A DNA stretch of 40,073 bases. Source: Candidatus Edwardsiibacteriota bacterium (GTDB lineage: Bacteria; Edwardsbacteria; AC1; EtOH8). Positions 21,858 through 38,461 of the stretch are shown in pieces (the stretch's first letter is position 1; every line of letters starts with the position of its first letter). The DNA lies in assembly GCA_025453955.1 (NCBI GenBank), contig JALOPJ010000006.1:1-40073 (forward strand). Direction: 5' to 3'. A program made the position numbers and the translations under genes. Below the pieces are notes generated by a model. That model was given only the letters and a program-made list of their open reading frames with translations, was not told where the DNA came from and did not search any database.

Positions 21858-21934
21858 CCATGGTAGTAATACTCCAACGGCATTGAATGGCGAACGGACA
21901 AAAATAATCCGTGCAAATCTGTGGATAAAAAGAA

Positions 21935-21963
21935 CCTGGCCCCCGGCAACGACGGGGATGACG
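21935..21963. repeat. Degenerate third copy of the 30-bp element
   Basis: It reads CCTGGCCCCCGGCAACGACG then GGGATGACG, keeping the CCTGG start and GGGGATGAC end. It ends 10 bp before the wecB ATG, so it would be part of that gene's untranslated leader. No classical Shine-Dalgarno is visible apart from GAAAGCGAAA. Confidence 0.5.
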
Positions 21964-21973
21964 AGAAAGCGAA

Positions 21974-23218
21974 ATGGAACGATCGCACAAGGTAATCCTG
22001 GTCGGCGGGGCGCGGCCCAACTTCCCCAAGCTGGCGCCGCTGCTGCGGGCGCTGGCCGGCCTGCCCGCCGCGGTGCGGCCGCGCGTCGTCACGGTCCACA
22101 CCGGCCAGCACTACGACGAGCTGCTGTCGCGGGTGTTCTTCCGCCAGCTGGGCATGCCCCGGGCCGACCACCACCTCGGCGCGGGCTCGGGCACGCACGC
22201 CCAGCAGAGCGCCGCGGTGCTGGCCGCGTTCGAGCGGGTGCTGCAGCAGGAGCGGCCGTCGCTGGTGGTCGTGGTGGGCGACGTCAACTCCACCATGGCG
22301 GCGGCTCTGGCGGCCGTCAAGCTGCACGTGCCCGTGGCGCACGTCGAGGCCGGCCTGCGCAGCTTCGACCGCACCATGCCCGAGGAGATCAACCGGGTGG
22401 TGACCGACCACCTGGCCGACCTGCTGTTCACCCACTGCGCCGACGCCAACGACAACCTGCGGCGCGAGGGGATCGCCGCGGCCAAGGTGCACTACGCCGG
22501 CAACGTGATGATCGACTCGCTGCGCGCCGGGCTGGCCGCGGCGCGGCGGCGGCCGCTGCTGGGGCGGCTGGGGCTGGAGCGGGCGGGGACGGTGCGGCCC
22601 TACGCGCTGGCGACCCTGCACCGGCCGGCCAACGTCGACGACAGGGCGGCGCTGTCCGGGATCGTGGCCGCGCTGGCGGGGATCGCGAAGGAAATGCCGG
22701 TGCTGTGGCCGGCGCATCCGCGCGCGCAGGCCAGCCTGAAGCGCTTCGGTTTGCTGCGGCGCTTGTGCCACACAAAAATCACCAGATCGGATATTGGGCC
22801 CGATGGATTATATTTGATGGATCCATTGGGGTATCTCGATTTCATCAAGGCGGAGATGTGCGCGGCCTGCGTCTTCACCGATTCCGGCGGGGTGCAGGAG
22901 GAGACGACGTGGCTGGGCGTGCCCTGCTTCACGGTACGCCCGGGCACCGAGCGGCCGGTGACGATCGCGCTGGGCACCAACCGCATGGCCGGCGTCAGCA
23001 CGGCGTCGATCCTCAGGGCCTGGCGGGCATGGCGCAAGCGGCATGCCCCGGCGCCGGCCCGTTCGCCCGGGGCGCTCGCCCGGTGCCGGATCCCCGGGTG
23101 GGACGGCCGGGCGGCGCAGCGGATCGCGGCGGCGATCGCGCGGTACCTGGACAAGGACTCGGCACCGTCCCGTCATTCCCGAGTAGTCGGAGGCCCTTTC
23201 ACACGAAGCATGCCCTGA
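21974..23218 (+). CDS. wecB: UDP-N-acetylglucosamine 2-epimerase (non-hydrolysing)
   Basis: This 414-residue enzyme interconverts UDP-GlcNAc and UDP-ManNAc, supplying an amino sugar for the glycan. The family is evident from VGGARPNFPKLAPLLRAL, VVTVHTGQHYDELLS, VVVVGDVNSTMAAALAAVKL, VAHVEAGLRSFDRTMPEEIN (active-site acidic and histidine region), VYAGN-like HYAGNVMIDSLR, LATLHRPANVDD, and FTDSGGVQEETTWLGVPCFT with the following RPGTERPVT. The substrate-binding residues I can recognise are all present. The last 15 residues (from about 400) are encoded by dispersed repeat copy B, which has replaced or extended the natural end. A typical family member ends near the RIAAAIARYL helix seen just before. 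Confidence 0.9.
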   Translation: MERSHKVILVGGARPNFPKLAPLLRALAGLPAAVRPRVVTVHTGQHYDELLSRVFFRQLGMPRADHHLGAGSGTHAQQSAAVLAAFERVLQQERPSLVVVVGDVNSTMAAALAAVKLHVPVAHVEAGLRSFDRTMPEEINRVVTDHLADLLFTHCADANDNLRREGIAAAKVHYAGNVMIDSLRAGLAAARRRPLLGRLGLERAGTVRPYALATLHRPANVDDRAALSGIVAALAGIAKEMPVLWPAHPRAQASLKRFGLLRRLCHTKITRSDIGPDGLYLMDPLGYLDFIKAEMCAACVFTDSGGVQEETTWLGVPCFTVRPGTERPVTIALGTNRMAGVSTASILRAWRAWRKRHAPAPARSPGALARCRIPGWDGRAAQRIAAAIARYLDKDSAPSRHSRVVGGPFTRSMP

Positions 23219-23276
23219 GCGGTGCCGAAGGGACGCGAAGACGCGGAGAACCTGATGGAGAATACAACCTGGATCC
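23172..23276. repeat. Dispersed repeat of about 105 bp, copy B
   Basis: It is in the same orientation as copy A at 21677-21780, so the two form direct repeats about 1.5 kb apart around wecB. The first 47 bp lie inside the wecB reading frame and provide its stop codon. The rest is intergenic and ends 20 bp before the promoter at 23296. Confidence 0.85.
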
Positions 23277-23295
23277 CCGGGAGCGCATTTCCCAC

Positions 23296-23325
23296 TTGAC
23301 ACGACCCGCGCCGGTTGTCTATACT
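23296..23325 (+). promoter_or_regulatory. Sigma70-type promoter for the initiating transferase gene
   Basis: A perfect -35 box TTGACA at 23296-23301 is followed after 18 bp by TATACT at 23320-23325, five of six matches to TATAAT. A transcript would start near 23332 and reach the ATG at 23359 with a leader of under 30 bases. It lies between repeat copy B and the coding region, so this promoter could drive the precursor genes independently of the long upstream operon. Confidence 0.75.
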
Positions 23326-23358
23326 CGAACGGAACACAATGTCATCCCGCAACGTAGT

Positions 23359-24411
23359 ATGAGCATCCTCATCGACACGCCCGCCGTCCGCTACCTGGCG
23401 CTGCTGCTGGTCGCGGCGCTGACCACCCGCGTCCTGATGCCGCTGGCGCACATCATGGGCCGGCGGATGAACGCCTGGGACGCGCCCGACGACCTCTCCC
23501 ACTCGGGCCACGTGTTCCGCCTGGCGCGCACCGGCGGCATCGCCATCGTGGGCGGCATCTACGTCGGCAACATGGTGGCCGTGATGCTCCAGCCCGAGCT
23601 GTTCGCCACCCGCGACATGGCGGCGATGATGCTGGGCGGGGCGGCCGTCTTCGTGGTGGGCCTGCTCGACGACCTGCGCGAGATCGCGCCCTGGCTCAAG
23701 GCCGTGCTGCTGGTGGCCGCCAGCGTGGCCACGGTGATGATGATGACGGCGGTGGCCCTGACGGGCTACGAGCGGCTGGATTTCCTGCTGGCGGCGCTGG
23801 CGCTGATGGGCGGGGCCAACGCCTTCAACCTGATGGACGGGCTGGACGGTCTGGCGGCGGGCATGGCCGTGGCCGCCTGCCTGGGCCTGCTGGCCCTGTC
23901 GCTGCGGCTGCAGACCTTCGAGGGCGGCAGCGTCAAGCTGATCTGCATCGGCGCGGCGCTGGGGTTCCTGTACTACAACCGGCCGCCGGCCGGGATCTTC
24001 ATGGGCGACTGCGGCAGCCTGCCGCTGGGCTTCTACCTGGCCGTGATGGGCCTCAACACCGTCCGCAGCGGTCCGGCGTCGTTCGTCCCGGTGCTGCTGG
24101 TGCTGTCGCCGTTCGCGCTGGACACCGGGCTGGCCGTCGTCCGCCGCCTGCTGCTGCGGCGGGACGTGTTCAGCGGAGACCGGCGGCACATCTACGACCT
24201 GCTGCATGAGCGGATCACGTCGGTGTGGCGGGTGGACTGGATCATGTGGTCGCTGGGCCTGGCGTTCTCAGGCTTGGGCCTGGCCGCCACCTGGCTGGCC
24301 GTGCCTTGGCAACTGGCGCTGCTGGCGTTCTCTTGGACCGCGGCGGTGCTGTGGATGGCGGCCCTGGGGATGTTCGCACCTGAAGCCCGCACACCGGGGA
24401 GCGCGTCATGA
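23359..24411 (+). CDS. WecA/MraY-type polyprenyl-phosphate sugar-1-phosphate transferase
   Basis: This 350-residue polytopic protein transfers a sugar-1-phosphate from a UDP-sugar to undecaprenyl phosphate, the first committed step of lipid-linked glycan synthesis at the inner membrane. Diagnostic motifs are WDAPDDLSHSGHVFRLARTG near the N-terminus, VVGLLDDLREI, ANAFNLMDGLDGLAAG with the catalytic aspartates, GIFMGDCGSLPLG, and the cytoplasmic GDRRHIYDLLHE. The single R-R-H-I-Y-D-L form suggests WecA/TagO rather than MraY. About ten membrane segments are visible. The frame is open far upstream through repeats and wecB antisense-quality sequence, but the ATG at 23359, downstream of the promoter at 23296, gives the family's normal length. 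The stop overlaps the next ATG (ATGA). Confidence 0.9.
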   Translation: MSILIDTPAVRYLALLLVAALTTRVLMPLAHIMGRRMNAWDAPDDLSHSGHVFRLARTGGIAIVGGIYVGNMVAVMLQPELFATRDMAAMMLGGAAVFVVGLLDDLREIAPWLKAVLLVAASVATVMMMTAVALTGYERLDFLLAALALMGGANAFNLMDGLDGLAAGMAVAACLGLLALSLRLQTFEGGSVKLICIGAALGFLYYNRPPAGIFMGDCGSLPLGFYLAVMGLNTVRSGPASFVPVLLVLSPFALDTGLAVVRRLLLRRDVFSGDRRHIYDLLHERITSVWRVDWIMWSLGLAFSGLGLAATWLAVPWQLALLAFSWTAAVLWMAALGMFAPEARTPGSAS

Positions 24412-25514
24412 TCAAGCTGGCAGATCCCGACATCACCGCCCGCGAGATCGCGGCGGTCGCCCGGGTGCTGCGGTCCGGCACGCTCAGCCTGGGCCCGGAA
24501 CTGGCGGCGTTCGAGGGGGCCTTCGCGAAGTACGTCGGCCGCAAGCACGCGCTGGCGGTGTGCTCCGGCACGGCCGGGCTGCACCTGGCGGTGCGGGCCC
24601 TGGGGCTGGGCCCCGGGGACGAGGTGGTCACCTCGCCCTACTCGTTCATCGCCTCGGTCAACTGCATCCGGTTCGAGGGCGCCCGGCCGGTGCTGGCGGA
24701 CATCGATCCCGGCACGTTCAACCTGGACCCGGCCCGGGCCGCGCGGAAGATCACCCGCCGGACCAAGGCCCTGTTGCCGGTCGACATCTTCGGCCTGCCG
24801 GCCGATTTCGACGCATTCCAGGCGCTGTGCGACCGGCACCGGCTGGCCATGATCGAGGATTCCTGCGAGGCGCTGGGCGCCGAATACCGCGGCAGGCGGT
24901 GCGGCTCGTTCGGCGACGCCTCGGTCTTCGGGTTCTATGCCAACAAGCAGATCACCACCGGCGAGGGCGGAATGGTGGTCTGCGACGACGACGCGCTCCA
25001 CCGGCTGATGGCCGCCATGCGCAACCAGGGCCGCAGCTCGATGGGCGGCTGGCTGGCGCACCGCATCCTGGGCTACAACTACCGGATGTCGGACCTCTCC
25101 GCGGCGCTGGGCCGGGTCCAGCTGTCGCGCCTGCCGCGGTTGCTGGCGAGGCGCCAGCGGCTGGCGGGCGCCTACCGGAAGCTGTTCGCCTCGCAGCTGC
25201 CGGAGTTCGGCACGCTGGGCGACCGACCGGGCATGGCCCGCAGCTGGTTCGTGTTCGCGGTGCTGGTGCCGCCGTCCCTGAAGGGAGCCCGGCGGGACGG
25301 GCTGATCAAGGGGCTGCAGGAGTCCGGCATCCAGTGCGCCCACTATTTCCCGGCGCTGCATCTCCAGCCCGCCCTCCGCGACCTGGGCCACCGGCGGGGC
25401 GACTTCCCGGTGGCCGAGGACATCGCCGACCGCAGCCTGGCGATCCCGTTCCACCACGGCCTGACCCGCCCCGACCAGGAACGGATCGTGCGGACGATCC
25501 GGCGGCTGGTCTGA
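24408..25514 (+). CDS. DegT/DnrJ/EryC1/StrS-family sugar aminotransferase
   Basis: This 368-residue PLP enzyme belongs to the group that aminates keto-sugars of nucleotide-activated precursors. Visible elements are KLADPDITAREIAAVARVLR at the N-terminus, ALAVCSGTAGLHLAVRALGL, DEVVTSPYSFIASVNCIRF, the PLP-contact AMIEDSCEALGAEYRGRRCG, the Schiff-base lysine K180 in FYANKQITTGEGGMVVCDDD, and NYRMSDLSAALGRVQL. The family usually reads 'Y-x-x-K-x-x-x-T-G-E-G-G', matched here. It starts inside the previous stop (ATGA), so it is coupled to the initiating transferase. No matching 4,6-dehydratase is visible in the window. The product sugar is unknown. Confidence 0.92.
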   Translation: MIKLADPDITAREIAAVARVLRSGTLSLGPELAAFEGAFAKYVGRKHALAVCSGTAGLHLAVRALGLGPGDEVVTSPYSFIASVNCIRFEGARPVLADIDPGTFNLDPARAARKITRRTKALLPVDIFGLPADFDAFQALCDRHRLAMIEDSCEALGAEYRGRRCGSFGDASVFGFYANKQITTGEGGMVVCDDDALHRLMAAMRNQGRSSMGGWLAHRILGYNYRMSDLSAALGRVQLSRLPRLLARRQRLAGAYRKLFASQLPEFGTLGDRPGMARSWFVFAVLVPPSLKGARRDGLIKGLQESGIQCAHYFPALHLQPALRDLGHRRGDFPVAEDIADRSLAIPFHHGLTRPDQERIVRTIRRLV

Positions 25515-26367: not shown

Positions 26368-26985
26368 ATGACGAACAGGTCCGCTGACATGCGGGTGCGG
26401 CCCGAGCGCATCGGGATCTTCGGCGGCACCTTCGACCCGGTCCATCTGGGCCACCTGATCGCGGCCCGCGAGGCGGCCGAGCGGCTGCGGCTGGACCGCG
26501 TGCTGTTGGTGCCGGCCGGCCGGCCGCCCCACAAGTGCCGGCGGCGGCTGGCCCCGGCAGCCCAGCGGGCGAGGATGGTGCGCCGGGCCGTGGCCGGAGA
26601 CCCACTGCTGCGGTTCAGCGGCGTCGAACTGGCCTCGCGCTGCGCCTCGTACACCGTGGACACGCTGCGGTCGATCGGCCGCCGGCACCCGCGGGCCCGG
26701 CTGTTCCTGCTGGTCGGACTGGACCAGGCCGCCCTGTTGCATACCTGGAAGGACCCGGGAACGCTGTTCGCGCTGGCCACGGTCTGCGCGCTGGCGCGCC
26801 CGGGTTTTTCGTTCGCCGCCATCCCCCCCCGCTGGCGCCGCCGGATCGTCCCGGTGCCGGTCAGCGCCGTCGGGATCAGCGCCAGCGCCATCCGGGCCCG
26901 GCTGCGCCGCGGCCTGACCATCCGCAACCTGGTGCCGCCGGCCGTCGAGCGGTACATCGCCGCAGAGGGGCTCTACTCGCCGTGA
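26368..26985 (+). CDS. nadD: Nicotinate-nucleotide adenylyltransferase
   Basis: This 205-residue enzyme joins ATP and nicotinate mononucleotide to form deamido-NAD in NAD biosynthesis. IGIFGGTFDPVHLGHLIAAR near the N-terminus is the nucleotidyltransferase signature with its H-x-G-H motif. LLVPAGRPPHKCRRRLAPAA, LRFSGVELASRCASYTVDTL, FLLVGLDQAALLHTWKDPG and VGISASAIRARLRRG (the S-x-T/S-x-x-R motif) complete it. The ATG at 26368 is preferred; another at 26389 would still include every motif. An unbroken frame upstream to 26137 lies inside the bamD-like gene and is not credible. The stop overlaps the next gene's GTG as GTGA, so the housekeeping gene is translationally coupled to the unusual metalloprotease. 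Confidence 0.93.
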   Translation: MTNRSADMRVRPERIGIFGGTFDPVHLGHLIAAREAAERLRLDRVLLVPAGRPPHKCRRRLAPAAQRARMVRRAVAGDPLLRFSGVELASRCASYTVDTLRSIGRRHPRARLFLLVGLDQAALLHTWKDPGTLFALATVCALARPGFSFAAIPPRWRRRIVPVPVSAVGISASAIRARLRRGLTIRNLVPPAVERYIAAEGLYSP

Positions 26986-29900
26986 ACGAAGCTGGTCCGA
27001 CAACACCGCCCGCGCCGCCCGGTGTGTGGGGGCTGCTCGGCGCCAAACTCGACTTCTCGCAGGCGCGGCCGGAGGCGCTGCCGGGCTTCGAGGAGGCCCG
27101 TTTCGTCGACGTCGACGGCCGCGGCTACTACGTCCTGAAGGCGCCGGGCGCCGCGGGCTACGTCAAGCTGGGGGAGAACGACCGCTACCTGTTCTCGCTG
27201 CTGGACGGCCGGCGCACCGTGCAGCAGGTGCTGGTGGAGTATTTCCGCAGGTACGGCGCCCTGGCCTTTTCCCGGGTGGGCTCGCTGGTGTCGCAGCTCT
27301 CGGCCGGCGGGTTCCTCACCCGCCGGCCGGTGGGATTCTACGCCCGGCTGCTGCGCAAGCTGGCCCTGCAGAAGCCGCTGGCCCGGGCGCTGGACCTGCT
27401 GCGCGCGCTGCCCCAGCGGCAGTGGCCGGTGCCCGGGTTCGACCGCCTGGTGGGGACGCTCTACCGCCGCGGATTCTGGCTGTTCTTCACGCCGGCGGTG
27501 ATCGCGCCCACCTCGCTGCTGGCGCTGGCCGGCCTGGCGGCGTTCGTGGCCGTGCTGCGTACCGGCCGCTATTCGGTGCTCACGTCATCGGGGTCCTACC
27601 TGCTGGGGCTGGCGGTGCTGGTGGCGCTCAACTACCTGGCGGTGATCACCCACGAGCTGTCCCATGCCCTGGCCTGCAAGCGGTTCCGCCGCTCGGTCAA
27701 CAGCGGCGGCACCATCCTGAGATGGGGGTTCCCGGCCTTTTACGTCGACACCACGGACACCTGGCTGCTGCCGCGGCGGCAGCGGATGCTGGTGACCATG
27801 GTCGGCCCCTATACCCAGTTCTTCCTGGCCGGCGTCGCCGCCCTGCTGGCGTGGTGGGGCCCGCTGGCGGCGCTCAATCCCCTCCTCTACAAGTTCGCGG
27901 CCCTCTCCTACCTGTCGGTGTTCCTCAACCTCAACCCGCTGCTGCCGCTGGACGGTTACTACATGCTGGCGGACTGGCTGGAGATCCCCGGACTGCGCGA
28001 CAAGGCCACGCGCTTCGTGCGGCGGGAGCTGTTCGCCAAGCTGCGGGCGCAGGCACCGCTGTCCAAGAACGAGAAGATCTACGCTTGGTTCGGTCTGGCC
28101 GTGTTCGCCTGGTCGGTGCTGGCGCTGGCGGCGGCCGTGGCGCTCTACCGCGAGCAGGCGGTGGCCGCCGTCCGGTGGTTTTTCCAGGCCACCAGCCCCG
28201 GGCAGCGCCTGGCCCTGGCCGGACTGCTGGCGGCCGCCCTGCTGGGGTCGGTCGCCGGGGCGCGGCGGCGGGTCGCCGGACTGCTGGCGGCCGCGTGGCG
28301 GGCGCTGCTGCGGTTCGTCAACGGCCACGTCGCCGCGGCGGGATCGGGGCTGGCCGGGGTCGCCCTGGCCGCGGCCTGGCTGGTGTCGCTGTCCCGCGGC
28401 TGGCCGCACCTGCTGCTGACCGGCCTGGCGCTGGCCGGGGGCGTGGCGCTGTTCTGGCGGGTCAACGCCTACTACCGCGGCTCGCACCTGTCGCTGACGC
28501 TGGCCAGCCTGCTGGCCGGCGCCGTGGTCTGTTTGATCGTTCCCGAGCTGCCCAGCACAGCTCAGACCTACGCGCTGCTGGCCGGGTCCACCGCGGCCTT
28601 CCTGGCCGGCTACGGCCAGTTCTCCTTCTCCAGTCTGCGCCGCTGGCGGGCGTGGCAGCGCTGGTTGTGGGGCCCGTTGTGGTACGGCTCGCTGCTGGTG
28701 ATCGGGCTGACCTCCCGCGGCCACCTCCATCAGAGCCTGGCGCTGCTGATCGCGGCGGCATCGTCGTTGATGGCGTTGTCGCTGATCTGGAACAACCGCG
28801 GCTCGGCCCTGCAGTACTTCTGGATCATCTTTCTGCTGGGCAGCCTGGGATGGGGCCTGTTCGTCATCGATCCCGCCGCCGCGCTGTTCGCCACCGCCGC
28901 GGGATTGCTGGAGCTGGCCGCCCTGCTGTGGCTGTTCCTGGTGATCAAGGGCACCTCCTGGTCGCCGGGCACCTCGGCCTTCGAACCGGCGGCCTCCGAG
29001 CGGCGGCGGATGCGCCAGGCCGCGGTCAAGATCTACCGGACGGCCCGCGCCTACTACACGACGTTCTTCGGGGTGGCCGCGGCCCGGGCGATGGACGACC
29101 GGCTCAACCTGATCCTGATCGAGCGCGGCTGGCCGATCCGGCTCTACGGCGACCGCAGCGAGGAGCGGTTCGAGCGCGGCGCCGGGATCGTCGACCGGGC
29201 CCGGGCCTTCGCCGGGATGCTGGACGCGATGCGCGACTACCTGGGCGCCGAGGGCGGCGAGTACTTCGCCGGCAACGCGCTGAAGACCGCCTACGAGAGC
29301 CTGTACTGGGAGGAGCGCGAGATCGCCCAGCAGAACCTGATGCCGGGCGCCCGCTGGCCGGCGGGCCTGGCGCTGGCCCGGGCCGGCCGGGAGCGGCGGG
29401 AGGCCCGGGACGCGGTGGACGGCGTGGCCCGCTTCTGGGAGCTGTCGGACGCGGAGCGCCAGGCCCTGTCCTCGCGGTTGAAGGAGGAGCGGCGGGCCGC
29501 CGGCGCGGTGATCATCCGCCAGGGCGACGCCGGCGACAAGTTCTACCTGGTGAAGTCGGGCGCCGTGGAGGTCGTCATCCGGATGCCGGACGGCGCCGAG
29601 CACGTCGCGGCGCGGTTGTCGGCCGGCGACTACTTCGGGGAGATCGCGCTGGTCAAGAACGTGCCGCGCACCGCGACGGTGCGGGCCGTCGCCGACTGCT
29701 CGCTGTTGACCCTGGACCGCGGGGACTTCGCGCTGCTGCTGTCGCAGCAGGTGGACCTGGCCCCCCGCATCGACCGGCTGATCGAGAACCGCGCGTTCCT
29801 GTCGCGGCTGCCGCTGTTCGCCGAGTTCGCGCCCGGCCAGATGGCGATGGTGGCCTCGCGGCTGGTCCCCGAGCGCTACCGGGCGGGGCAGCGCATCTTC

Positions 29901-30209
29901 TCGCAGGGCGATCCCGGCGACAGCTTCTACATCGTCAAGGAGGGGCAGGTCGACATCCTGGTCGCCAGGGATGGCCAGCAGAGCAGGGTGGCCGAGCTGG
30001 GGCCGGGCGAGTACTTCGGCGAGATCGCCCTGCTGCTGGACGTGCCCCGCACCGCCGGCGTGGTGGCCCGCAGCGACTGCCTGGTGCTCCGCCTGATGCA
30101 GGGGGACTTCATGGAGCTGCTGGGCGAGCAGCTGTACTTCTCCAAGAGCCTGGAGCAGGCCTCCAGCCGCAGGATGAAGGACACGCGGTACAAGATCAAC
30201 GTGGAGTGA
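26982..30209 (+). CDS. Membrane M50-type metalloprotease with PqqD-like and two cNMP-binding domains
   Basis: The GTG at 26982 overlaps the nadD stop (GTGA) and gives 1075 residues; the frame upstream runs inside nadD. Four regions can be read. Residues 35-115 resemble PqqD: VKLGENDRYLFSLLDGRRTV with a winged-helix-like continuation. Residues 165-370 are an M50-type core, with zinc motif HELSH at 224-228 in a membrane helix and NLNPLLPLDGYYMLADWLEI carrying the third ligand aspartate 324; this is the YydH-like 'peptide zinc metalloprotease' pattern. Residues 370-720 hold many more hydrophobic segments. Residues 835-930 and 945-1065 are cyclic-nucleotide-binding domains, each with a cassette (YFGEIALVKNVPRTATV; YFGEIALLLDVPRTAGV) that keeps the glutamate and arginine. 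It may be a signal-gated membrane protease (inference). Confidence 0.86.
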   Translation: MNEAGPTTPPAPPGVWGLLGAKLDFSQARPEALPGFEEARFVDVDGRGYYVLKAPGAAGYVKLGENDRYLFSLLDGRRTVQQVLVEYFRRYGALAFSRVGSLVSQLSAGGFLTRRPVGFYARLLRKLALQKPLARALDLLRALPQRQWPVPGFDRLVGTLYRRGFWLFFTPAVIAPTSLLALAGLAAFVAVLRTGRYSVLTSSGSYLLGLAVLVALNYLAVITHELSHALACKRFRRSVNSGGTILRWGFPAFYVDTTDTWLLPRRQRMLVTMVGPYTQFFLAGVAALLAWWGPLAALNPLLYKFAALSYLSVFLNLNPLLPLDGYYMLADWLEIPGLRDKATRFVRRELFAKLRAQAPLSKNEKIYAWFGLAVFAWSVLALAAAVALYREQAVAAVRWFFQATSPGQRLALAGLLAAALLGSVAGARRRVAGLLAAAWRALLRFVNGHVAAAGSGLAGVALAAAWLVSLSRGWPHLLLTGLALAGGVALFWRVNAYYRGSHLSLTLASLLAGAVVCLIVPELPSTAQTYALLAGSTAAFLAGYGQFSFSSLRRWRAWQRWLWGPLWYGSLLVIGLTSRGHLHQSLALLIAAASSLMALSLIWNNRGSALQYFWIIFLLGSLGWGLFVIDPAAALFATAAGLLELAALLWLFLVIKGTSWSPGTSAFEPAASERRRMRQAAVKIYRTARAYYTTFFGVAAARAMDDRLNLILIERGWPIRLYGDRSEERFERGAGIVDRARAFAGMLDAMRDYLGAEGGEYFAGNALKTAYESLYWEEREIAQQNLMPGARWPAGLALARAGRERREARDAVDGVARFWELSDAERQALSSRLKEERRAAGAVIIRQGDAGDKFYLVKSGAVEVVIRMPDGAEHVAARLSAGDYFGEIALVKNVPRTATVRAVADCSLLTLDRGDFALLLSQQVDLAPRIDRLIENRAFLSRLPLFAEFAPGQMAMVASRLVPERYRAGQRIFSQGDPGDSFYIVKEGQVDILVARDGQQSRVAELGPGEYFGEIALLLDVPRTAGVVARSDCLVLRLMQGDFMELLGEQLYFSKSLEQASSRRMKDTRYKINVE

Positions 30210-30246
30210 GAGGGGAAGCGCTCTGGGCGCCCCGCAGCGCACGTCA

Positions 30247-31701
30247 GTGACCGCGCACGCCGCGCTGACACCGCGCGGGATCATCCTTCGGCGCATCGAC
30301 GTGCTGCGGGCACGTGCGGATGTCCGTCTCACCATCGGCGACTACGATCGGGCGTTGGCCGATGCCGTCGACGCTTTCGCTGCGGCGATGGCGTGCGACG
30401 AGGGGGCCGTGCAGGCCGATTGCCTGATGCTACAAGGCCGGGCGCACTGTGGTCACAGCCGGTTCGCCGAGATGGAACGCTGCGCCCGGCAGGCCCTGGA
30501 CCTGGCGCGGACCCGCGGCGACCTCAGCGACCAGGCGGCCGCGCTCAACAACTTGGCGATGTCGTTGGCCTATCGCGGCGCCTGCCGACCAGCGCTTGAT
30601 GCGCTGGTCGAGGCGCTCTCCCTGCACCGGAGCATCGATGACGAGGATGGCCGGGCCTACACCCTGGGCAATATCGGGTTCATGCACAACGCCCTGGGCG
30701 ACAACGACGCGGCCCTGGCGCACCACCGCCGGTCCCTGGCGCTGCGACAGCGCCTGGGCGAGATCAGGGAACAGGCCTCCAGCCTCGACAACATCGGCAC
30801 CGCGCTCTTCAAGCTGGGCGATCCTCTGCAGGCGCTGGCGCATTACCAGGAATCGCTGCGGCTGCGGATGGGGATCGGCGACCGCTCCGGCCAGGCCACC
30901 TGCCTCAACAACATCGGCTACCTGCGCCAGTTGGCTGGCGACTACTGCGGCACGCTGGACTGCTACCGGCAAGCGCTGCGGTTGCGCGAGGCGACCGGCG
31001 ACCGCGCCGGTCATGCGCTGGTGTTGCAGAACATCGCCATCCTCAACGGGCAGCTGGGCGACTACCGGCACGCCCTGGCGCAGAGCGAACAGGCGCTGGC
31101 CGTGCGCAACGAGTTGGATGACCGCAGCGGCGCGGCCTACAGCCATATCGCTGTCGCGCGGTTGTTGATCGAGCAGGGAGGGGACACACAGCAGGTGGCG
31201 GCGCACCTCGATGCCGCGGCGGCCATCGCCGCCGAGATCGAGGAGCCGGAGATCGGCCTGCGGATCGCGGACGCCCGCACCGAGCTAGCGCTGGCCCGCG
31301 CGGATACTGGTGCCGCCGGCATCTTTTGCGGGGAAGCCCGCAAGCTGGCAGAACGACTGCGCTCGAAACAGGGGCAGGCCCGAACGGCGCTGCTGGGCGC
31401 CAGGATCGACGCCGCGCTGGGCAGGGTCGAGGCGGCGCAGGCCGGATTCCGGGAGGCGATCGCGGTCTGCCAGGAACTGCAACAGGCTTTCGAGACGGCC
31501 GGCGCCCGGCTGCGGTTCGCCGAGTTCCAGATGAGCCGCGACGCCGAGGCCGCCCGGGAACACCTTGATGCCGCGGCGGCGTTCTTCACGCGCATCGGCA
31601 ACCGGACCTATCTGGAGCGGATCGAACGCCTGCAGTCCGATCCGCGGTGCGGGCGGCACCGCGGCCAAGACGCCGGCACATCAGCCACCACAACGGACTG
31701 A
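30247..31701 (+). CDS. Tetratricopeptide-repeat protein
   Basis: This protein of up to 484 residues is built of about eight to ten TPR units of roughly 40 residues, the TPR_12 spacing. Repeated phrases include AALNNLAMSLAYRGA, TLGNIGFMHNALGD, SLDNIGTALFKLGD and CLNNIGYLRQLAGD. Such long-unit TPR arrays are the usual C-terminal half of bacterial adenylate cyclases, LuxR-type regulators and serine/threonine kinases with sensor roles. No catalytic or DNA-binding domain is present here. The GTG start at 30247 is weakly supported: no clear Shine-Dalgarno is seen, and the first ATG lies about 48 codons in. The gene lies 37 bp after the cyclic-nucleotide-binding protease and just before the zinc protein, so a scaffold role in that group is plausible but unproven. 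Confidence 0.85.
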   Translation: MTAHAALTPRGIILRRIDVLRARADVRLTIGDYDRALADAVDAFAAAMACDEGAVQADCLMLQGRAHCGHSRFAEMERCARQALDLARTRGDLSDQAAALNNLAMSLAYRGACRPALDALVEALSLHRSIDDEDGRAYTLGNIGFMHNALGDNDAALAHHRRSLALRQRLGEIREQASSLDNIGTALFKLGDPLQALAHYQESLRLRMGIGDRSGQATCLNNIGYLRQLAGDYCGTLDCYRQALRLREATGDRAGHALVLQNIAILNGQLGDYRHALAQSEQALAVRNELDDRSGAAYSHIAVARLLIEQGGDTQQVAAHLDAAAAIAAEIEEPEIGLRIADARTELALARADTGAAGIFCGEARKLAERLRSKQGQARTALLGARIDAALGRVEAAQAGFREAIAVCQELQQAFETAGARLRFAEFQMSRDAEAAREHLDAAAAFFTRIGNRTYLERIERLQSDPRCGRHRGQDAGTSATTTD

Positions 31702-31714
31702 ACGGAGGTTCCCC

Positions 31715-31927
31715 ATGGAATGCTGGCATTGCGAACGGCCGGCCAACGCGGTCTGCAGCTTCTGCGGCCGGGCGGTGTGCAAGGAGCACGCCCGCAAGCT
31801 GCCCAACCTGATCGCGGTCTACCGGGCCAAGGACCAGAAGCTGAAGGGCCTGGCCACGGCGGACGCGGTGTTCTGCGGGGTCTGCCACCCCAAGAACGAG
31901 CCGGTGGAGCTGGAGGAACTGGACTGA
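31715..31927 (+). CDS. Small B-box-like zinc-binding protein
   Basis: The ATG at 31715 follows GGAGG at 31704-31708 with six bases between, giving a 70-residue protein. It begins MECWHCERPANAVCSFCGRA and continues VCKEHARKLP, then VFCGVCHPK near the end. The order C-x2-C, C-x2-C, C-x2-H, C-x2-C is the cross-brace pattern of B-box-type or related treble zinc fingers. Similar short proteins in bacteria are uncharacterised; a role in protein or nucleic-acid contact is only a guess. The frame is open upstream into the TPR gene, but the ribosome site fixes the start. It ends 90 bp before the NHLP-like gene, with a 7-bp phased array between. Confidence 0.8.
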   Translation: MECWHCERPANAVCSFCGRAVCKEHARKLPNLIAVYRAKDQKLKGLATADAVFCGVCHPKNEPVELEELD

Positions 31928-32012
31928 TCAATGAACATCTGGCATGGAACAATGAACCAATAGCAGCGAATCGTTCCTGCGGAATCGTTCATTGATCATT
32001 GTGCATTGTATA
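31926..32012. repeat. 7-bp phased mirrored array with 11-bp inverted repeat
   Basis: From 31929 the sequence can be cut into heptamers: CAATGAA (31929), CATCTGG, CATGGAA, CAATGAA (31950), CCAATAG, CAGCGAA, then in the opposite sense TCGTTCC, TGCGGAA, TCGTTCA, TTGATCA, TTGTGCA, TTGTATA (32006). The ends form a perfect inverted repeat: GATCAATGAAC at 31926-31936 with GTTCATTGATC at 31987-31997, around 50 bases. It occupies nearly all of the spacer between the zinc protein and the NHLP-like gene. Confidence 0.65.
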
Positions 32013-32017
32013 TAGTG

Positions 32018-32440
32018 ATGCCGGACCCCAACGTCCAGCTGATCCTCGACCGCGTGTTCGCGGACGACGACTTCCGCCGCCGGCTGGAGGCCGACCTGGA
32101 GGGCACGGTGCTCGGCCTGGGCATCGCCCTGTCGGACGCGGCCCTGGCCGAACTGATGACCGTGCTGGACGAGGGCGGCGACTTCGCGGTGGGATTGGAC
32201 CAGCGGCTGTCGCAGAGCGGCTTCGCGCTCAACCCCGCCGCGCTGCTGCGGCAGAAGGCCGCGACCGGGAAACGGACCGAGGATTTCGACCAGCGGTCGG
32301 CTGCGGTCAAGGTTTCGACCGCCCGGCACGGTGGTAGCAATCGGCAGCGGCAAGCCCCGGCCGTAGCCGGCGAACCCGCGGCAATGCCAGCCGAACCCTT
32401 GGAAGAGGGGGAAATGGATATTGAGGTTGAAAGCGACTAG
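32018..32440 (+). CDS. Os1348/NHLP-clan-like small protein
   Basis: The ATG at 32018 gives 140 residues; GTG at 32015 and TTG at 32006 are alternatives, and no good Shine-Dalgarno is visible. Residues 6-50 (LILDRVFADDDFRRRLEADL, then GTVLGLGIALSDAALAELMT) follow the pattern of the Os1348 family of the nitrile-hydratase-leader-peptide (NHLP) clan: 'DxxFRxxLxxDxxxxLxxxGxxLSDxxLxxL'. In other bacteria NHLP-type leaders guide RiPP modification and export. The following 90 residues are polar, with RKAATGKRTEDF-like charge, then a Pro/Ala/Glu-rich end and acidic tail EEGEMDIEVESD. There are no cysteines and no obvious core peptide. Its neighbour carries a PqqD-like domain and a metalloprotease, making a leader/receptor relation conceivable. 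Confidence 0.68.
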   Translation: MPDPNVQLILDRVFADDDFRRRLEADLEGTVLGLGIALSDAALAELMTVLDEGGDFAVGLDQRLSQSGFALNPAALLRQKAATGKRTEDFDQRSAAVKVSTARHGGSNRQRQAPAVAGEPAAMPAEPLEEGEMDIEVESD

Positions 32441-32617: not shown

Positions 32618-35600
32618 ATGAAACGTCTCATTGTCTGTTTGGCCATGCTCTGCCTGGCGGCGGTGTCATCACAATCGAGCGCCGCCACCTACGGCGTCAA
32701 GAAGCAGATCACCATCGGCCCGACCGGGCCGAACGTGCAGAATCTCGGCTTCAGCAAGCTGAGCAACCGCATGTACTGCGCCTCCGGCTCGTACAGCATG
32801 CTGGTGGCGGTGGATTGCGCCGCTGATTCGTCCTTGGGCACGATCCCGGGGTCGTTCATGGCCGGGCCGATGGCGTACGACGGGACGAACAATCGGATCT
32901 ATATGAAGGGCATGGACGAGCTCTCGGTCATCGATTGCGCCACCAACGCCGAGGACACGACCGTCGACGGGTTCCAGGGCGGACTGGCGGTGGAGTACAA
33001 CCCGGACAACGGCAAGATCTACAGCTACGATGATTTCAGCGGACTGACCGCGATCCACAGCTCGGCCGGCTACGGGTTCCTCGCCAGCATCCCCGGCTTC
33101 GGCGGCCCGATGGCCTACTGCCAGCCGACCAACAGCATCTACATCGCGCATTACTCGGCGGATTCGGTCGGCGCATTCAGCGGGGCGACCAACGCCCGCG
33201 TCGCGTCGATCCCGCTGCCGGGGCTGTCGTCGGGCAACAAGCGGATGGGGACGAACACCGCCATCGGCCGGCTCTACGTCGCGCTGTCCGCCAGCGACCG
33301 GGTGGCCATCGTCAACACGGCGACCAACGGCCTGCTGGCCAGCCCGCTGGTGGGGGACAACCCGGCCGGGTTCGCCCTGTGCCCGCTCAACAACAAGATG
33401 TTCGTGGCCTGCAACGGATCCAGCGCCCGCTCGCTGTATACCATCGACCAGCTGGGCGCCGTCGACTCGGTCGCCGTCAGCGACTCGCTGGCCGCCGTGG
33501 CGTACAACCCGGCCGACTCGCTGGTCTACTGCGCCGACTACAACCGGGGGTCCATCTGGCTGGTCGATCCCCGGGGCGCCAGCCCGGTGCTGGTCGACAG
33601 CGTCAGCCTGGGGGGCACCTGGGCCCGCCCGGTGGCGCTGGCGGTGGACAACGGCGGCGACGTCTACGTGGCCGCCAGCGGCCTGGACCAGGTGCCGGTG
33701 GTGGGCAGGATGCCGGGGCGGATCTGGCGCAGCGTGACCGCCAGCGGGCAGTGGTACTCGCCATCATCGTGGCAGTACTCCGACAACGGCGGCCTCACCT
33801 GGGGCAACCCCGACAGCATCTATCCCTCCGCCGTCGGCGACAGCATCATCACCATCCAGGCCGGGCACGCCATCGCGCTGGACATCGGCGGGCCGAACGT
33901 GACGGTCGACCAGCTGGTGGTCGACGGCATGCTCGTCCAGTTCGGCACGGCGTTCACCGTCGCCGACGGCCCGGGCACGGACCTCGCCGTCAACGGCAAC
34001 TTCCAGTTCTCCGGCGGGACGCTGACCCTGGCCGGCGGCGCGACGATGGCGGTGGCCGCGGGCGGGATGTACACCCATGCGGTCAACGGCGGCACGGTGC
34101 CGGTGGCCGCGTGGGACCCGTACTCGACCTTGCGCCTCACGGACGTCCAGGACCAGGCGCCGGGCGGCATGGAACAGGCGTTCGGCGACATCCTCTGGAA
34201 CTGCGCGGACCAGACCGCCACGGTCGTGCTGCCGGGAGGGCCCTCCTTCACGGTTCGCAACCTGGTGGTCTCATCCACGGCCGGCAGCCGGCTGTTCCTC
34301 ACCAGCCCGGCGGTGCCGGACCTGGCGGTGAACGGCGACCTCACGGTCACCGGCTCGAGCGATGTGGTGCTGGGCGGCGGCGGGACGCGCAGCGTCACGG
34401 TCAACGGGGACTTCAACGTCTCCGATCCCGCCTGGCTGCACCTGACCGACAGCGCCAGCCCCGGCCTCGCCACGCTGAACCTGCGGGGCGACTACTGGCA
34501 CGGGGTCTCCGGCATCGCCGGCGGCGGCCCGGACTCGACCACCATCGCCTTCTGCGGCAGCGACACCCAAAGATACACCGGCAACGGCGAGATCCTGAGC
34601 GGGTACGTCAACTACCGGGTGGACCCGGGAGCGATGCTGGTGATCAACGATTTCAGCTACGTGGGCCAGAACAGCCCGGGCTGGTTCCGGCTGATGGCCG
34701 GCGCCACGCTGGGGCTCAACGATTACCAGGGCCTGTACCTGTCCGGCGACAACGGCGCGGTGCGGGTGGCGGGCGCCCGCAGCTACAGCACCGATGCCAA
34801 TTACTACTTCTACTCCTTCTCGACGGGTCCGTTCCCGACCGGGCCCGGTTTCCCGGACACCGTGCGCCAGCTGACCGTCGCCAGCCCGGGCGATCCCGTG
34901 GTGCTGTCGAAGGACCTGGCGGTGCGGGACACGCTGTCGCTGCAGAGCGGGCCGCTGCGGGTGGGCGCCCGCCGGCTGTCGCTGCTGGGCGCGGTGAGCT
35001 ATGCCGGCGGCGACTTGATCGCGGACAGCACGTCCCGCCTGGCGGTGCTGGGCAATGCCCCCGACCCGGTGCTGATCCCGGCCACGGTCAGCGGGCTGGA
35101 CACCCTGGTGCTGGACCGTCCCGCCGGCGTCAACCTGGGCGCGCCGCTGCCCATCCTGGGCGCCTATGTCCAGCGCCGCGGCACGGTGCTCAGCAACTGG
35201 CTGCAGTACCGGCCGGCGGCCCGGCTGGTCTACGAGATGGCCGGCGCGGCCAGCACGGGCGGCGGAGAGTTCCCCGTCAGCGACGGGCCGCGCAACGTCA
35301 CCGTCAACACCGGCGGGCCGCTGATGCTGCACGATAACCGCACGGTGCCGGGCACCCTGACCCTGACCCAGGGCGTCGTCGCCACCGGCTCCTATGCCAT
35401 CACCGTCGACAGCACCGGGACGCTGGTGCGCGGGGCCGGCTACGTGGAGGGCGGCCTGACCCGCTACCTGGCGATCACCGACACCGGACGCACATTCGAC
35501 CTGGGCACGATCGGCGCGGGATATACGCCGGCCACGGTGCGGACGTACGGCAACACCGGCAACGGTTTCATCGCCGCCCGGGTCACCGGAACGTCGCACC

Positions 35601-37564
35601 CGGCCGTCACCAATGCGCCGGCCTGCCTGCGCAAGTTCTGGTCGTTCGCCTCGGGCGGGCTGATGGCCGACAGCTGCCGCATCACGCTGCGCTACGCCAG
35701 CGCCGACTTCAACCCGCCGCTGTTCGAGGAGGCGGCGCACGAGGGCGCGATGGCGGCGGGCCGCTACGACAACGACACCGTGTCGCTGTGGCGCGGTCCC
35801 GCGGTGGCCGGGCGCGCTCCCGCCGGGTCCGCCGACGGCGGAACGATCACGCTCAGGCACCCCGGGCTGTTCGACCTGGAGCCGGACTTCACCATGGGTC
35901 GGGACAGCGCGGCGCTGTGGGCCCCGTTCGACAGCGCGGCGCCGACGGTGCTGCAGCTGACGCCCTACACCGGTGACACGACGGTTCCGACCATGGCGCC
36001 GGTGACCGTGACCTTCTCGGAGCCGATCAACGACACCAGCCTGCATTTCGCCTGCAGCCCGGACCCCGGCGGCTGGCAGGCCAACTGGGACGCCGGCGGC
36101 ACCGTCGCCACGCTGACCCACTCGCTGTTCGCGGCGGGCACCCAGTACACGGTGACCATCACCGGCGCCCGCGACACCAGCGGCACGCCGCTGGTCTTCC
36201 CGCAGGCCACCATCTTCCGCACGGTGCCGGCGCAGGTCTACACGACGCCTTGGCAGGGCAGGGTCTACCGGCTGTTCTCGGTGCCGGCGGTCCCCACCGC
36301 GACCACGGCCACCGGCCTGCTGTCGGGCTCGCTGGGCGCCTACTCCAACGCCACCTGGCGGATGTTCTGGTACGACCCGCAGGCGGCCGCCTTCGTCGAG
36401 CAGCCCGGCGTCCACAACGGCCAGGCCTACTGGCTGGCCTCGGCCGCCAACGATACCCTGCAGATCGACGCCACGCCGAACGGCGCGGCGCAGACGGTGC
36501 TGCGCCTGGAGCCCGGCTGGAACCTGGTGGGGGACCCCTACGACGTCCCGCTGTCGGTCGGCGATCAGCGGGTCGCGGACGACTCGGGAGCCACCTACCC
36601 CTTCAACGATCCCGGCAGCTACGTCAACGACAGCCTGGTCCGCCAGCGGCTGTGGACGTACCGCGACGTCAGTCAGGACCTGATGAATAACGGCAGTTGG
36701 GACACCGTCAGCGCGTTCGACACCGCGGCCGTGATCGCCCCGTGGCAGGGCTACGCGCTGTACGCCGTCGCCGGATGCGAGCTGAGGCTCTCTGGTGCCT
36801 GGAAGGGCGCCGGAAGTCCCGCGGTGAAACTGCCGGACCCGGGGATCAGCTGGGAGCTGCGGATCGACGCCGTCTGCGATCGCGGGGCTGACCGCGGGGT
36901 GACGTTGGGCGTCGCCGAGCGGTCGCGTGCCGGATATGACCGGCTGGACGCCGAGAAGCCGCCGCTGATCACCTCCGAGATCGGCGTCGCGGTGCCCCAC
37001 CCGGACTGGCACCAGGGGCCCTGCAGTGACTACCATTTCGATTACCGGCCGCCCGCCGACCGGCTGGAATGGCCGCTGCTGGTGCGGCAAAGCGATCCCG
37101 GACGGCCCGGCCGCCTGGTGTTCAGCGCCAGCGGCGCGTTGCCGGCGGGACAGCGGACCTACCTGGTGGACCGTCGGCTGGGGACCGCCGTGGAGATCGG
37201 CGACGGCTCCGTCGTCGGTTTCTCCGGCAACCGCGAGTTCGCCGTGATCTGCGGCGACGGCATCGGGGAGCTCGGCCTGAAACCGCTGACCCTGGCGCTG
37301 GAACGGCCGTCCCCCAACCCCTGCGCCGGCTCGGCCGCCATCGGCTACCAGCTGCCGCGGCCGGGCCCGGTCAGCCTCCGGGTCTACAACGTCGCCGGCC
37401 AGCTGGTGCGGACGCTGGCCGACGGGCACCGGGACGCCGGCTATTACTCGGTGCGCTGGGACGGCAGGAACGACCAGCGGCTGGCGGCCTCCGCCGGGCT
37501 GTATATCGTGCGGCTGGTGTGCAACGGGGAGGCCCGCACCGAGAAACTGGTGCGGTTGAGATAG
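32618..37564 (+). CDS. Large secreted beta-propeller/Ig surface protein with FlgD/T9SS-like C-terminus
   Basis: The ATG at 32618 with GAAAGGA upstream begins a Sec signal peptide (MKRLIVCLAMLCLAAVSSQS, cleavage likely after SSAA); the frame upstream is AT-rich leader. The mature protein of about 1620 residues has three parts. First, YVTN/YncE-like propeller blades to about residue 390 (KLSNRMYCASGSYSMLVAVD and similar). Second, a long beta-rich region with repeated NGDLTVTG/NGNFQFSG-type strands, then an SbsA/Big_5-like Ig domain near 1105-1205 (TVPTMAPVTVTFSEPINDTS). Third, a WNLVGDPYD module near 1300. Residues 1560-1648 (ERPSPNPCAGSAAIGYQLP, LRVYNVAGQLVRTLADG, SAGLYIVRLVCNGEARTEKL) match FlgD-Ig/T9SS-like tail domains of the FCB group. 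Likely surface-exposed or secreted; function unknown. Confidence 0.87.
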   Translation: MKRLIVCLAMLCLAAVSSQSSAATYGVKKQITIGPTGPNVQNLGFSKLSNRMYCASGSYSMLVAVDCAADSSLGTIPGSFMAGPMAYDGTNNRIYMKGMDELSVIDCATNAEDTTVDGFQGGLAVEYNPDNGKIYSYDDFSGLTAIHSSAGYGFLASIPGFGGPMAYCQPTNSIYIAHYSADSVGAFSGATNARVASIPLPGLSSGNKRMGTNTAIGRLYVALSASDRVAIVNTATNGLLASPLVGDNPAGFALCPLNNKMFVACNGSSARSLYTIDQLGAVDSVAVSDSLAAVAYNPADSLVYCADYNRGSIWLVDPRGASPVLVDSVSLGGTWARPVALAVDNGGDVYVAASGLDQVPVVGRMPGRIWRSVTASGQWYSPSSWQYSDNGGLTWGNPDSIYPSAVGDSIITIQAGHAIALDIGGPNVTVDQLVVDGMLVQFGTAFTVADGPGTDLAVNGNFQFSGGTLTLAGGATMAVAAGGMYTHAVNGGTVPVAAWDPYSTLRLTDVQDQAPGGMEQAFGDILWNCADQTATVVLPGGPSFTVRNLVVSSTAGSRLFLTSPAVPDLAVNGDLTVTGSSDVVLGGGGTRSVTVNGDFNVSDPAWLHLTDSASPGLATLNLRGDYWHGVSGIAGGGPDSTTIAFCGSDTQRYTGNGEILSGYVNYRVDPGAMLVINDFSYVGQNSPGWFRLMAGATLGLNDYQGLYLSGDNGAVRVAGARSYSTDANYYFYSFSTGPFPTGPGFPDTVRQLTVASPGDPVVLSKDLAVRDTLSLQSGPLRVGARRLSLLGAVSYAGGDLIADSTSRLAVLGNAPDPVLIPATVSGLDTLVLDRPAGVNLGAPLPILGAYVQRRGTVLSNWLQYRPAARLVYEMAGAASTGGGEFPVSDGPRNVTVNTGGPLMLHDNRTVPGTLTLTQGVVATGSYAITVDSTGTLVRGAGYVEGGLTRYLAITDTGRTFDLGTIGAGYTPATVRTYGNTGNGFIAARVTGTSHPAVTNAPACLRKFWSFASGGLMADSCRITLRYASADFNPPLFEEAAHEGAMAAGRYDNDTVSLWRGPAVAGRAPAGSADGGTITLRHPGLFDLEPDFTMGRDSAALWAPFDSAAPTVLQLTPYTGDTTVPTMAPVTVTFSEPINDTSLHFACSPDPGGWQANWDAGGTVATLTHSLFAAGTQYTVTITGARDTSGTPLVFPQATIFRTVPAQVYTTPWQGRVYRLFSVPAVPTATTATGLLSGSLGAYSNATWRMFWYDPQAAAFVEQPGVHNGQAYWLASAANDTLQIDATPNGAAQTVLRLEPGWNLVGDPYDVPLSVGDQRVADDSGATYPFNDPGSYVNDSLVRQRLWTYRDVSQDLMNNGSWDTVSAFDTAAVIAPWQGYALYAVAGCELRLSGAWKGAGSPAVKLPDPGISWELRIDAVCDRGADRGVTLGVAERSRAGYDRLDAEKPPLITSEIGVAVPHPDWHQGPCSDYHFDYRPPADRLEWPLLVRQSDPGRPGRLVFSASGALPAGQRTYLVDRRLGTAVEIGDGSVVGFSGNREFAVICGDGIGELGLKPLTLALERPSPNPCAGSAAIGYQLPRPGPVSLRVYNVAGQLVRTLADGHRDAGYYSVRWDGRNDQRLAASAGLYIVRLVCNGEARTEKLVRLR

Positions 37565-37618
37565 GAGGTGGCCATGAGGACGAGATCTATGGCAGACGTC
37601 AACAAGCGAGGTGCGAGC

Positions 37619-38461
37619 ATGAGGACCATCGTCAACCGGCCGGCGGCCGTCGCCCTGCTGGCCGCGCTGCTGCTGTCGCCGGCCGGACCGGTGCTGGCGG
37701 CGTTCAAACCGGCCAGCGCCAAGGTCAGCTTCGTCAAGGGCACGGTGGCGATCCAGCGGATGGGAACGAACGCCTGGCTGCCGGCGGCGCTCAAGGCGCG
37801 GGTCTACCCCGGGGACCGGATCGCGGCGGAATCGGGATCGGAGGCCGAGATCACCCTGGACGACGGCAGCGTGGTCAAGCTGCGCGACAAGAGCCTGCTG
37901 GTGATCGACCGGATGGAGCGGCAGAAGAAGCCGCCGGCCTCGATCACCGGCCTGCGGGCGGTCAACGGCAGCGTGCTGGGCTGCATCCGCAAGCTGGCCT
38001 CCAAGGAGAGCAAGTTCAGCGTCACCACGCCGACCGCGGTGGCCGGGGTGCGGGGCACCGTGTTCGGCATCTTCGTGGCGGGCGATTCCACCGAGCTGGA
38101 CGTGCTGCAGGGCGAGGTGGCGATCGCCGGCGAGACGGGCGGCGAGGTGCTGGTGGGCGAGAAGATGATGACCACCGTGCCCAAGGGGGGAAGCGCCCGC
38201 AGACCGGCGGCGATGACCGCCGCCCAGATCGGGATGATGATGATGTGGGGCGGCGCGGCGATCAAGGTGGGCAGCCTGGGCGCCGCGGCGAGCACGGCGT
38301 GGTACGCCTCGGCACCGGCGCTGATCGCCGCCTCGGCCGCCGTGGTGGCCGCGGCCACGGTGACCACCATCGCCATCGTCAGCGGGAAGGACGAGACGCC
38401 CCCCGGCGGCGGCAGCGGCCCCGCCATCCCCACACCGCCGGGCTTCCCGGGGCAGCCGTAA
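37619..38461 (+). CDS. FecR-domain secreted protein
   Basis: The 280-residue protein from the ATG at 37619 begins with a signal peptide (MRTIVNRPAAVALLAALLLS, ending near PVLAA). The FecR domain follows: VSFVKGTVAIQRMGTNAWLP, LKARVYPGDRIAAESGSEAE and ITLDDGSVVKLRDKSLLVI, then VTTPTAVAGVRGTVFGIFV and LDVLQGEVAIAG. A hydrophobic helix near residue 220-255 (SAPALIAASAAVVAAATVTT) and a Gly/Pro-rich tail end the protein. FecR-type domains occur in periplasmic sensors and surface proteins. There is an alternative in-frame ATG at 37574 with a stronger AGGAGG site; it would add 15 residues before the signal peptide. Both starts have a GGTG-containing ribosome site and the same ATGAGGAC. Confidence 0.85.
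   Translation: MRTIVNRPAAVALLAALLLSPAGPVLAAFKPASAKVSFVKGTVAIQRMGTNAWLPAALKARVYPGDRIAAESGSEAEITLDDGSVVKLRDKSLLVIDRMERQKKPPASITGLRAVNGSVLGCIRKLASKESKFSVTTPTAVAGVRGTVFGIFVAGDSTELDVLQGEVAIAGETGGEVLVGEKMMTTVPKGGSARRPAAMTAAQIGMMMMWGGAAIKVGSLGAAASTAWYASAPALIAASAAVVAAATVTTIAIVSGKDETPPGGGSGPAIPTPPGFPGQP

Follow-up and report, generated by a model that had tools for sequence, protein, structure and literature searches.

P0001, encoded on the forward strand of a Candidatus Edwardsiibacteriota contig, joins a predicted RiPP recognition element (RRE) and an M50 protease core to tandem cyclic nucleotide-binding (CNB) domains, and we consider it probable, judging from sequence and fold comparisons, that it acts as a second-messenger-gated leader peptidase, a relative of the daptide peptidase, with P0004 as its substrate and P0003 as an accessory. 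The leader-peptidase reading is supported by the RRE fold, the homology to the daptide protease and the invariant catalytic residues, as well as by contiguous M50/zinc/Os1348 gene sets, the radical SAM and ATP-grasp genes of one Anaerolineae locus (L071), repeat-tailed Os1348 proteins and co-occurrence counts. Its gating part draws on canonical nucleotide-binding cassettes, a PKA-like tandem CNB fold and cyclases near P0001 or Os1348 genes. That the gene set travels together across distant phyla suggests that a second messenger decides when a peptide is cut and released.

Gene layout and neighbourhood in Edwardsbacteria

The window, that is, the whole stretch of 40,073 nucleotides analysed, is contig 60 of a 2.5-Mb MAG, and the named relatives of its genes come from Candidatus Edwardsbacteria / UBP2 MAGs. 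A preliminary description of it had recognised four adjacent genes, and ORF calls place all four where it put them (Table 1). P0001 starts with a GTG at 26982 that overlaps the nadD stop, and P0004, which ends at 32440, starts with a TTG at 32006 or, more likely, an ATG at 32018. P0001, P0003 and P0004 are each kept in 9–10 of the 10 genomes of the window's bacterial family, a conservation that rules out chance ORFs. Upstream, at 21883–25514, lie polysaccharide-type genes (MraY-like and WecB-like by eye, a DegT aminotransferase by Pfam). Downstream of P0003–P0004, at 32618–38461, are genes for a surface-type protein of 1648 aa (Big_5/FlgD_ig) and for one with a FecR domain, which are possible downstream clients.

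Table 1. Genes, domains and motifs of the P0001–P0004 locus, in coordinates of the window.
Feature	Position	Strand	Description
P0001	26982..30209	+	1075 aa; RRE-M50-membrane region-linker-tandem CNB protein
RRE/PqqD-fold N-terminal domain of P0001	27069..27326	+	About residues 30–115; three strands, then three helices
HELSH motif	27651..27665	+	Zinc/catalytic motif (H224, E225, H228); alignment
NPLLPLDGYY motif	27933..27962	+	D324, probable third zinc ligand; alignment
Conserved linker	28995..29345	+	About residues 672–788 of P0001; alignment of long forms; helix-strand-helix model
CNB domain A	29439..29756	+	Phosphate-binding cassette FGEIALVKNVPRTA at 29634–29675
CNB domain B	29799..30131	+	Phosphate-binding cassette FGEIALLLDVPRTA at 30015–30056
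P0002	30247..31701	+	TPR protein, 484 aa; optional, no constant part of the cassette
P0003	31715..31927	+	70 aa; Cys/His zinc-binding-like; most constant partner of P0001
P0004	32018..32440	+	Os1348-type NHLP-clan protein, 140 aa from ATG; probable substrate or precursor
GLDQRLSQSG motif of P0004	32192..32221	+	End of the Os1348 domain; common to Chloroflexota (GVDQRMSK, LDPRLSK)

Among genomes of the family, P0001 is preceded by a BamD-like gene and nadD wherever this could be read, and in Edwardsbacteria relatives P0003 lies directly upstream of P0004, the pair being followed, contig permitting, by a gene for a large surface-type and/or FecR-domain protein. The P0001 block and the P0003–P0004 block abut in two genera (g1, g3) and lie on different contigs in g2; in g4 they are separated by about 300 kb, and this last gap counts against the leader-peptidase reading. 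An orthologue of P0002 (49%) stands upstream of P0003–P0004 in G002/g2, and another TPR protein does so in G001, so that the TPR gene differs between G000 and G001 and is not a fixed part of the cassette. A strict four-gene operon is thus rejected, given the two blocks of g4 and g2 and the varying TPR gene: what stands of the proposed four-gene set is the recurrence of P0001, P0003 and P0004, while the TPR gene is not fixed and the run of four is not universal in the phylum.

The protease core of P0001

The HELSH zinc site of the earlier description proved sound, since H224, E225, H228 and D324 are intact in P0001 and invariant in all 27 homologues, which come from several phyla; both the HELSH and the LDG of the M50 active site are present. 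In a wider set of 35 rows of homologues, HExxH is lost in L140 only. This M50-CNB homologue, which has YQVAQ in place of HExxH and adjoins zinc and Os1348 genes, is likely an inactive form to judge from its residues.

P0001 matches the Pfam M50 model below threshold (E=2e-4), and its residues 56–391 match NF041824, the daptide intramembrane metalloprotease, with E=5e-40; the same model matches 27/27 homologues over RRE and M50. The score of P0001 is 137.8 bits against a family cut-off of 300, and that of its M50 part with NF058609 (YydH/LiaK/EpeP) is 46 bits (E=5.5e-12) against 225, so membership of the daptide or epipeptide family is ruled out by the cut-offs. A long membrane region separates the M50 site from the linker, and the full-length model has a pLDDT of 84 and a pTM of 0.59. 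In a tree of the M50 region, the proteins from Edwardsbacteria fall among the Chloroflexota sets.

The N-terminal RRE domain

A PqqD-like domain at the N-terminus had been claimed from the sequence, and AlphaFold and Foldseek indeed give an RRE/PqqD fold, the sequence likeness being marginal. The model of residues 26–135 (43-row alignment, pLDDT 81) found as its top PDB matches the TbiB1 RRE-leader complexes 5v1u and 5v1v (probability 1.00, TM to target 0.71–0.73), with TfuB1 and TglHI also among the matches. None of these matches reaches E=0.001, and values above that are common for domains as small as this one. By profile search of PDB sequences, PaaA, TfuB1 and PqqD were among the weak matches; TIGR03859 matches with E=0.08 and PF05402 in three of the 27 members of the homologue set, and a related FHA protein exceeds the Pfam PqqD threshold. 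On these models, the N-terminal domain of P0001 is best read as an RRE fold. A domain unrelated to PqqD/RRE folds would have refuted the preliminary hypothesis, which thus withstands this test.

Sensor domains and cyclases

The two cyclic nucleotide-binding domains already described in P0001 are recovered by Pfam with E=8e-53, and their cassettes, FGEIALVKNVPRTATV and FGEIALLLDVPRTAGV, are of the canonical FGE...R type, both intact. In the full-length model, they form a tandem CNB fold like that of the cAMP-bound PKA regulatory subunit. Class III cyclases are found close by in relatives: in the g2 and g4 Edwardsbacteria the vicinity of P0001 includes a cyclase-AAA-TPR gene, a few kb away, and two small CNB genes, and in g4 the cyclase retains its expected catalytic motifs (by eye). 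Similarly, most Os1348 genes in the fetched f61-type loci of Chloroflexota have a class III cyclase-AAA-TPR gene next to them (with Pfam applied to L157, L159 and L160).

Relatives of P0001 also have FHA in place of CNB or in addition to it. In L169 and L170, CNB precedes M50 and the gene adjoins an Os1348 gene; in L167 (G161:C20), the gene for an FHA-PqqD-M50 protein is accompanied by a kinase-like gene and by four consecutive genes for very long Os1348 proteins, and the protein of L168 carries FHA, CNB, PqqD and M50. The CNB-first proteins of L169 and L170 and the FHA protein of L167 point to different sensors on the same kind of protease. The canonical cassettes of P0001, the cyclases beside P0001 or Os1348 genes in relatives and the FHA swaps and additions all lend support to the proposed nucleotide gating. 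In Roseiflexales long forms, the cassettes are degraded (PBC1 has lost FGE, and the Arg of PBC2 is Pro), and gating by cAMP is not general because these CNB domains lack some of the cassette residues.

We regard as tentative, and somewhat doubtful, the broader proposal of a widespread signal-gated peptide-release class with an RRE-M50 core and interchangeable sensors, CNB for cyclic nucleotides and FHA for phospho-threonine. If true, a leader-bearing and sometimes repeat-tailed peptide would be freed only on a cyclase or kinase signal.

P0004 as candidate substrate

The small protein that had been likened to the Os1348/NHLP clan belongs there by several signs: P0004 matches NF038399 with E=2.8e-7 and 32.5 bits (NCBI cut-off 40), its orthologues in G001 and G003 score 42–44 bits, above the cut-off, and its family profile finds nitrile hydratase alpha (E=1e-4) as well as the crystal structure of Os1348, 6LK7 (E=0.002). 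The GLDQRLSQSG motif is a possible leader/core junction. There is no Cys and no GG in the P0004 sequence, and the C-terminus (E-x-D-x-E-V-E) shows conservation where a RiPP core would usually vary. In several Chloroflexota proteins, the tail behind the Os1348 domain consists of repeats, for example (DTGTV)n, (RNTA)n or (LNSAEA)n, which might be precursor-like. In addition, L164 (G189:C32) encodes a tandem pair of Os1348 peptides whose C-termini are rich in Trp (e.g. ...DSKGWWYIIWGWFSWW), adjoining a radical SAM gene.

No modifying enzyme or exporter was recognised beside P0004 among the selected neighbours scanned in the window and in the fetched Edwardsbacteria loci, nor was a daptide-type decarboxylase, aminotransferase or methyltransferase among the nearby ORFs and the Pfam matches of selected neighbours. 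Seven Edwardsbacteria genomes searched contain no TIGR03975 radical SAM protein above cut-off, and SPASM-type matches occur elsewhere in the genome, none of them on the window's contig. The earlier view that no RiPP enzyme stands beside the module applies to the window's locus and fails for the module at large, as RiPP-type enzymes adjoin it in L071 and L075. That neither a modifying enzyme nor an exporter was recognised beside P0004, that the protein lacks Cys and GG and that its C-terminus is conserved all count against the leader-peptidase reading.

Since the end of its tail is conserved and no RiPP enzyme was recognised nearby, P0004 might instead be a regulatory adaptor, a role that we consider unlikely without dismissing it. 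Its Os1348 domain would then bind to the RRE and, jointly with P0003, regulate P0001, the true substrate being another membrane or envelope protein. The neighbouring surface or FecR-domain protein would be the candidate, as in ordinary site-2 proteolysis, and the order of P0003–P0004 followed by such proteins in Edwardsbacteria (Big_5/FlgD_ig in the window) agrees with this. However, Os1348 partners in Chloroflexota bear repeat tails, and in the L071 and L075 sets RiPP-type enzymes adjoin and surface or FecR genes were not seen.

The conserved extreme C-terminus of the P0004 tail would also suit a Pearlin-like scaffold. P0004 would then serve as a carrier, its acidic C-terminus being first modified and afterwards trimmed by the M50 protease in the way that TglG removes C-terminal residues; the M50 proteases TglG and TmoG act at peptide C-termini (PMC10885120), and TglHI is among the Foldseek matches of the RRE domain. 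This is very unlikely in our judgement, as no peptide aminoacyl-tRNA ligase was noticed on inspection of the genes beside P0004, and the P0004 C-terminus is absent from the repeat-tailed Chloroflexota partners.

P0003 as the constant partner

P0003 was rejected as a member of a known fold, giving no more than weak NSD-type Cys/His matches, and it is a more constant partner of P0001 than the NHLP-like protein. Actinobacterial and deltaproteobacterial MAGs, as well as those of Chloroflexota, have P0003-like genes adjoining RRE-M50-CNB genes. In another Chloroflexota family (L132, L138, L152), the zinc protein occurs without M50 and adjoins a ParA/MinD-like ATPase and a CNB protein. In L137, the zinc gene is followed by an (ASKRV)n repeat protein in the expected place of Os1348, and no Os1348 domain was seen in it.

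Recurrence across phyla

Co-occurrence in other genomes, whose absence the preliminary description had named as a refutation of its hypothesis, was found: genes of the P0001, P0003 and P0004 types are contiguous across phyla. RRE-M50-CNB homologues are present in Chloroflexota, actinobacterial and deltaproteobacterial MAGs, with a form without CNB in Acetothermia, and contiguous M50-CNB/Zn/Os1348 sets in Edwardsbacteria and many Chloroflexota. The Anaerolineae MAG of L071 has two sets: in one, M50-CNB/Zn/Os1348 precedes a radical SAM enzyme of the TIGR03975 family (E=2e-195), and the other reads Zn/Os1348/ATP-grasp/M50-CNB.

We fetched 38 Chloroflexota loci that surround the zinc gene: M50-CNB adjoins it in 15, and 11 of these 15 have an Os1348 protein alongside (10 by HMM, L126 by eye); the HMM for Os1348 gave no match in the remaining 23 zinc loci, some of which are on short contigs. 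We also searched one set of 301 Chloroflexota genomes for the RRE-M50, zinc and Os1348 families, classifying the RRE-M50 + CNB genomes (n=35) by hand among the matches listed and leaving out weak zinc matches. The zinc protein occurs in 35/35 RRE-M50-CNB genomes versus 15/266 others (Fisher p ~3e-34) and Os1348 in 34/35 versus 91/266 (p ~1e-13), both p values ignoring shared ancestry. In the f61 family, the three genes co-occur though scattered. Some Chloroflexota long forms have neither a zinc nor an Os1348 gene adjoining, and these forms, together with the Roseiflexales cassette loss and the HExxH loss of L140, count against the leader-peptidase reading.

These distributions bear on whether P0001 is a housekeeping site-2-type protease with incidental neighbours, the co-occurrence being due to shared ancestry and conserved gene order. 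P0001 follows nadD across the bacterial family and is unlinked to P0004 in g4, as would be expected of such a protease. However, in other phyla the set recurs beside unrelated genes, it co-occurs even when scattered, and the zinc gene adjoins RRE-M50-CNB in the MAGs of three groups named above; a housekeeping role is accordingly hardly probable at all.

Proposed mechanism

In the leader-peptidase mechanism that we infer, the cytoplasmic RRE of P0001 would grip the Os1348/NHLP-type leader of P0004, its putative ligand and substrate, and the M50 intramembrane protease would cut the bound P0004, perhaps near GLDQRLSQSG, so that the C-terminal part would be released at or across the membrane, on a side that is likewise presumed. 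The tandem CNB domains would sense cAMP, or another nucleotide, from class III cyclases and switch the protease, in a presumptive direction, and P0003 would assist either the protease or the substrate as a small zinc-binding protein. Binding by the RRE, cleavage and nucleotide gating are all proposed activities of P0001.

Comparison with known systems

Discussion of how RiPP maturation is controlled mostly concerns gene expression. If cAMP-type sensors were built into a leader peptidase, peptide release would come under direct second-messenger control, and the cassette reading would offer a function that can be tested for Os1348-type proteins without a modifying enzyme. Our literature search, with most subscription papers outside its scope, found no paper joining the RiPP recognition element with a cyclic nucleotide and none on a fused PqqD/RRE-M50-cyclic nucleotide-binding architecture.

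Several known systems share parts of this design. The HetC protein of Nostoc is likewise a peptide-processing membrane protein with a CNB-fold sensor domain, although it combines a C39 peptidase with an ABC exporter where P0001 has M50. In vitro, the ligand of its CNB-type domain is ppGpp and not cAMP, and the nucleotide ligand of P0001 may therefore not be cAMP (PMC10986499). The eukaryotic PKA regulatory subunit has the same tandem CNB fold (~29% identity, with the P0001 cassettes intact) but controls a kinase, whereas the CNB domains of P0001 are joined to a membrane protease. P0004 carries the domain of the Os1348 family (NF038399; 6LK7), of which a Pseudomonas protein has been put forward as a precursor that undergoes post-translational modification (PMC7726476). 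Instead of an RRE-M50-CNB protein as here, the Os17 cluster of Pseudomonas encodes a predicted peptidase of gluzincin-like type together with a SagB-type dehydrogenase. The epipeptide proteases YydH/LiaK/EpeP (NF058609) are M50 RiPP proteases as well, the sub-threshold match of P0001 being limited to the M50 part. Closest is daptide MpaP/DapP (NF041824), in which an RRE is fused to M50 and whose model spans both parts of P0001; MpaP is described as taking off the leader by RRE-dependent intramembrane proteolysis (PMC10036551). It differs in that the CNB domains lie outside the model match and P0001 scores 138 versus 300 bits, and daptide clusters contain the decarboxylase, aminotransferase and methyltransferase genes that were not recognised at the P0001 locus.
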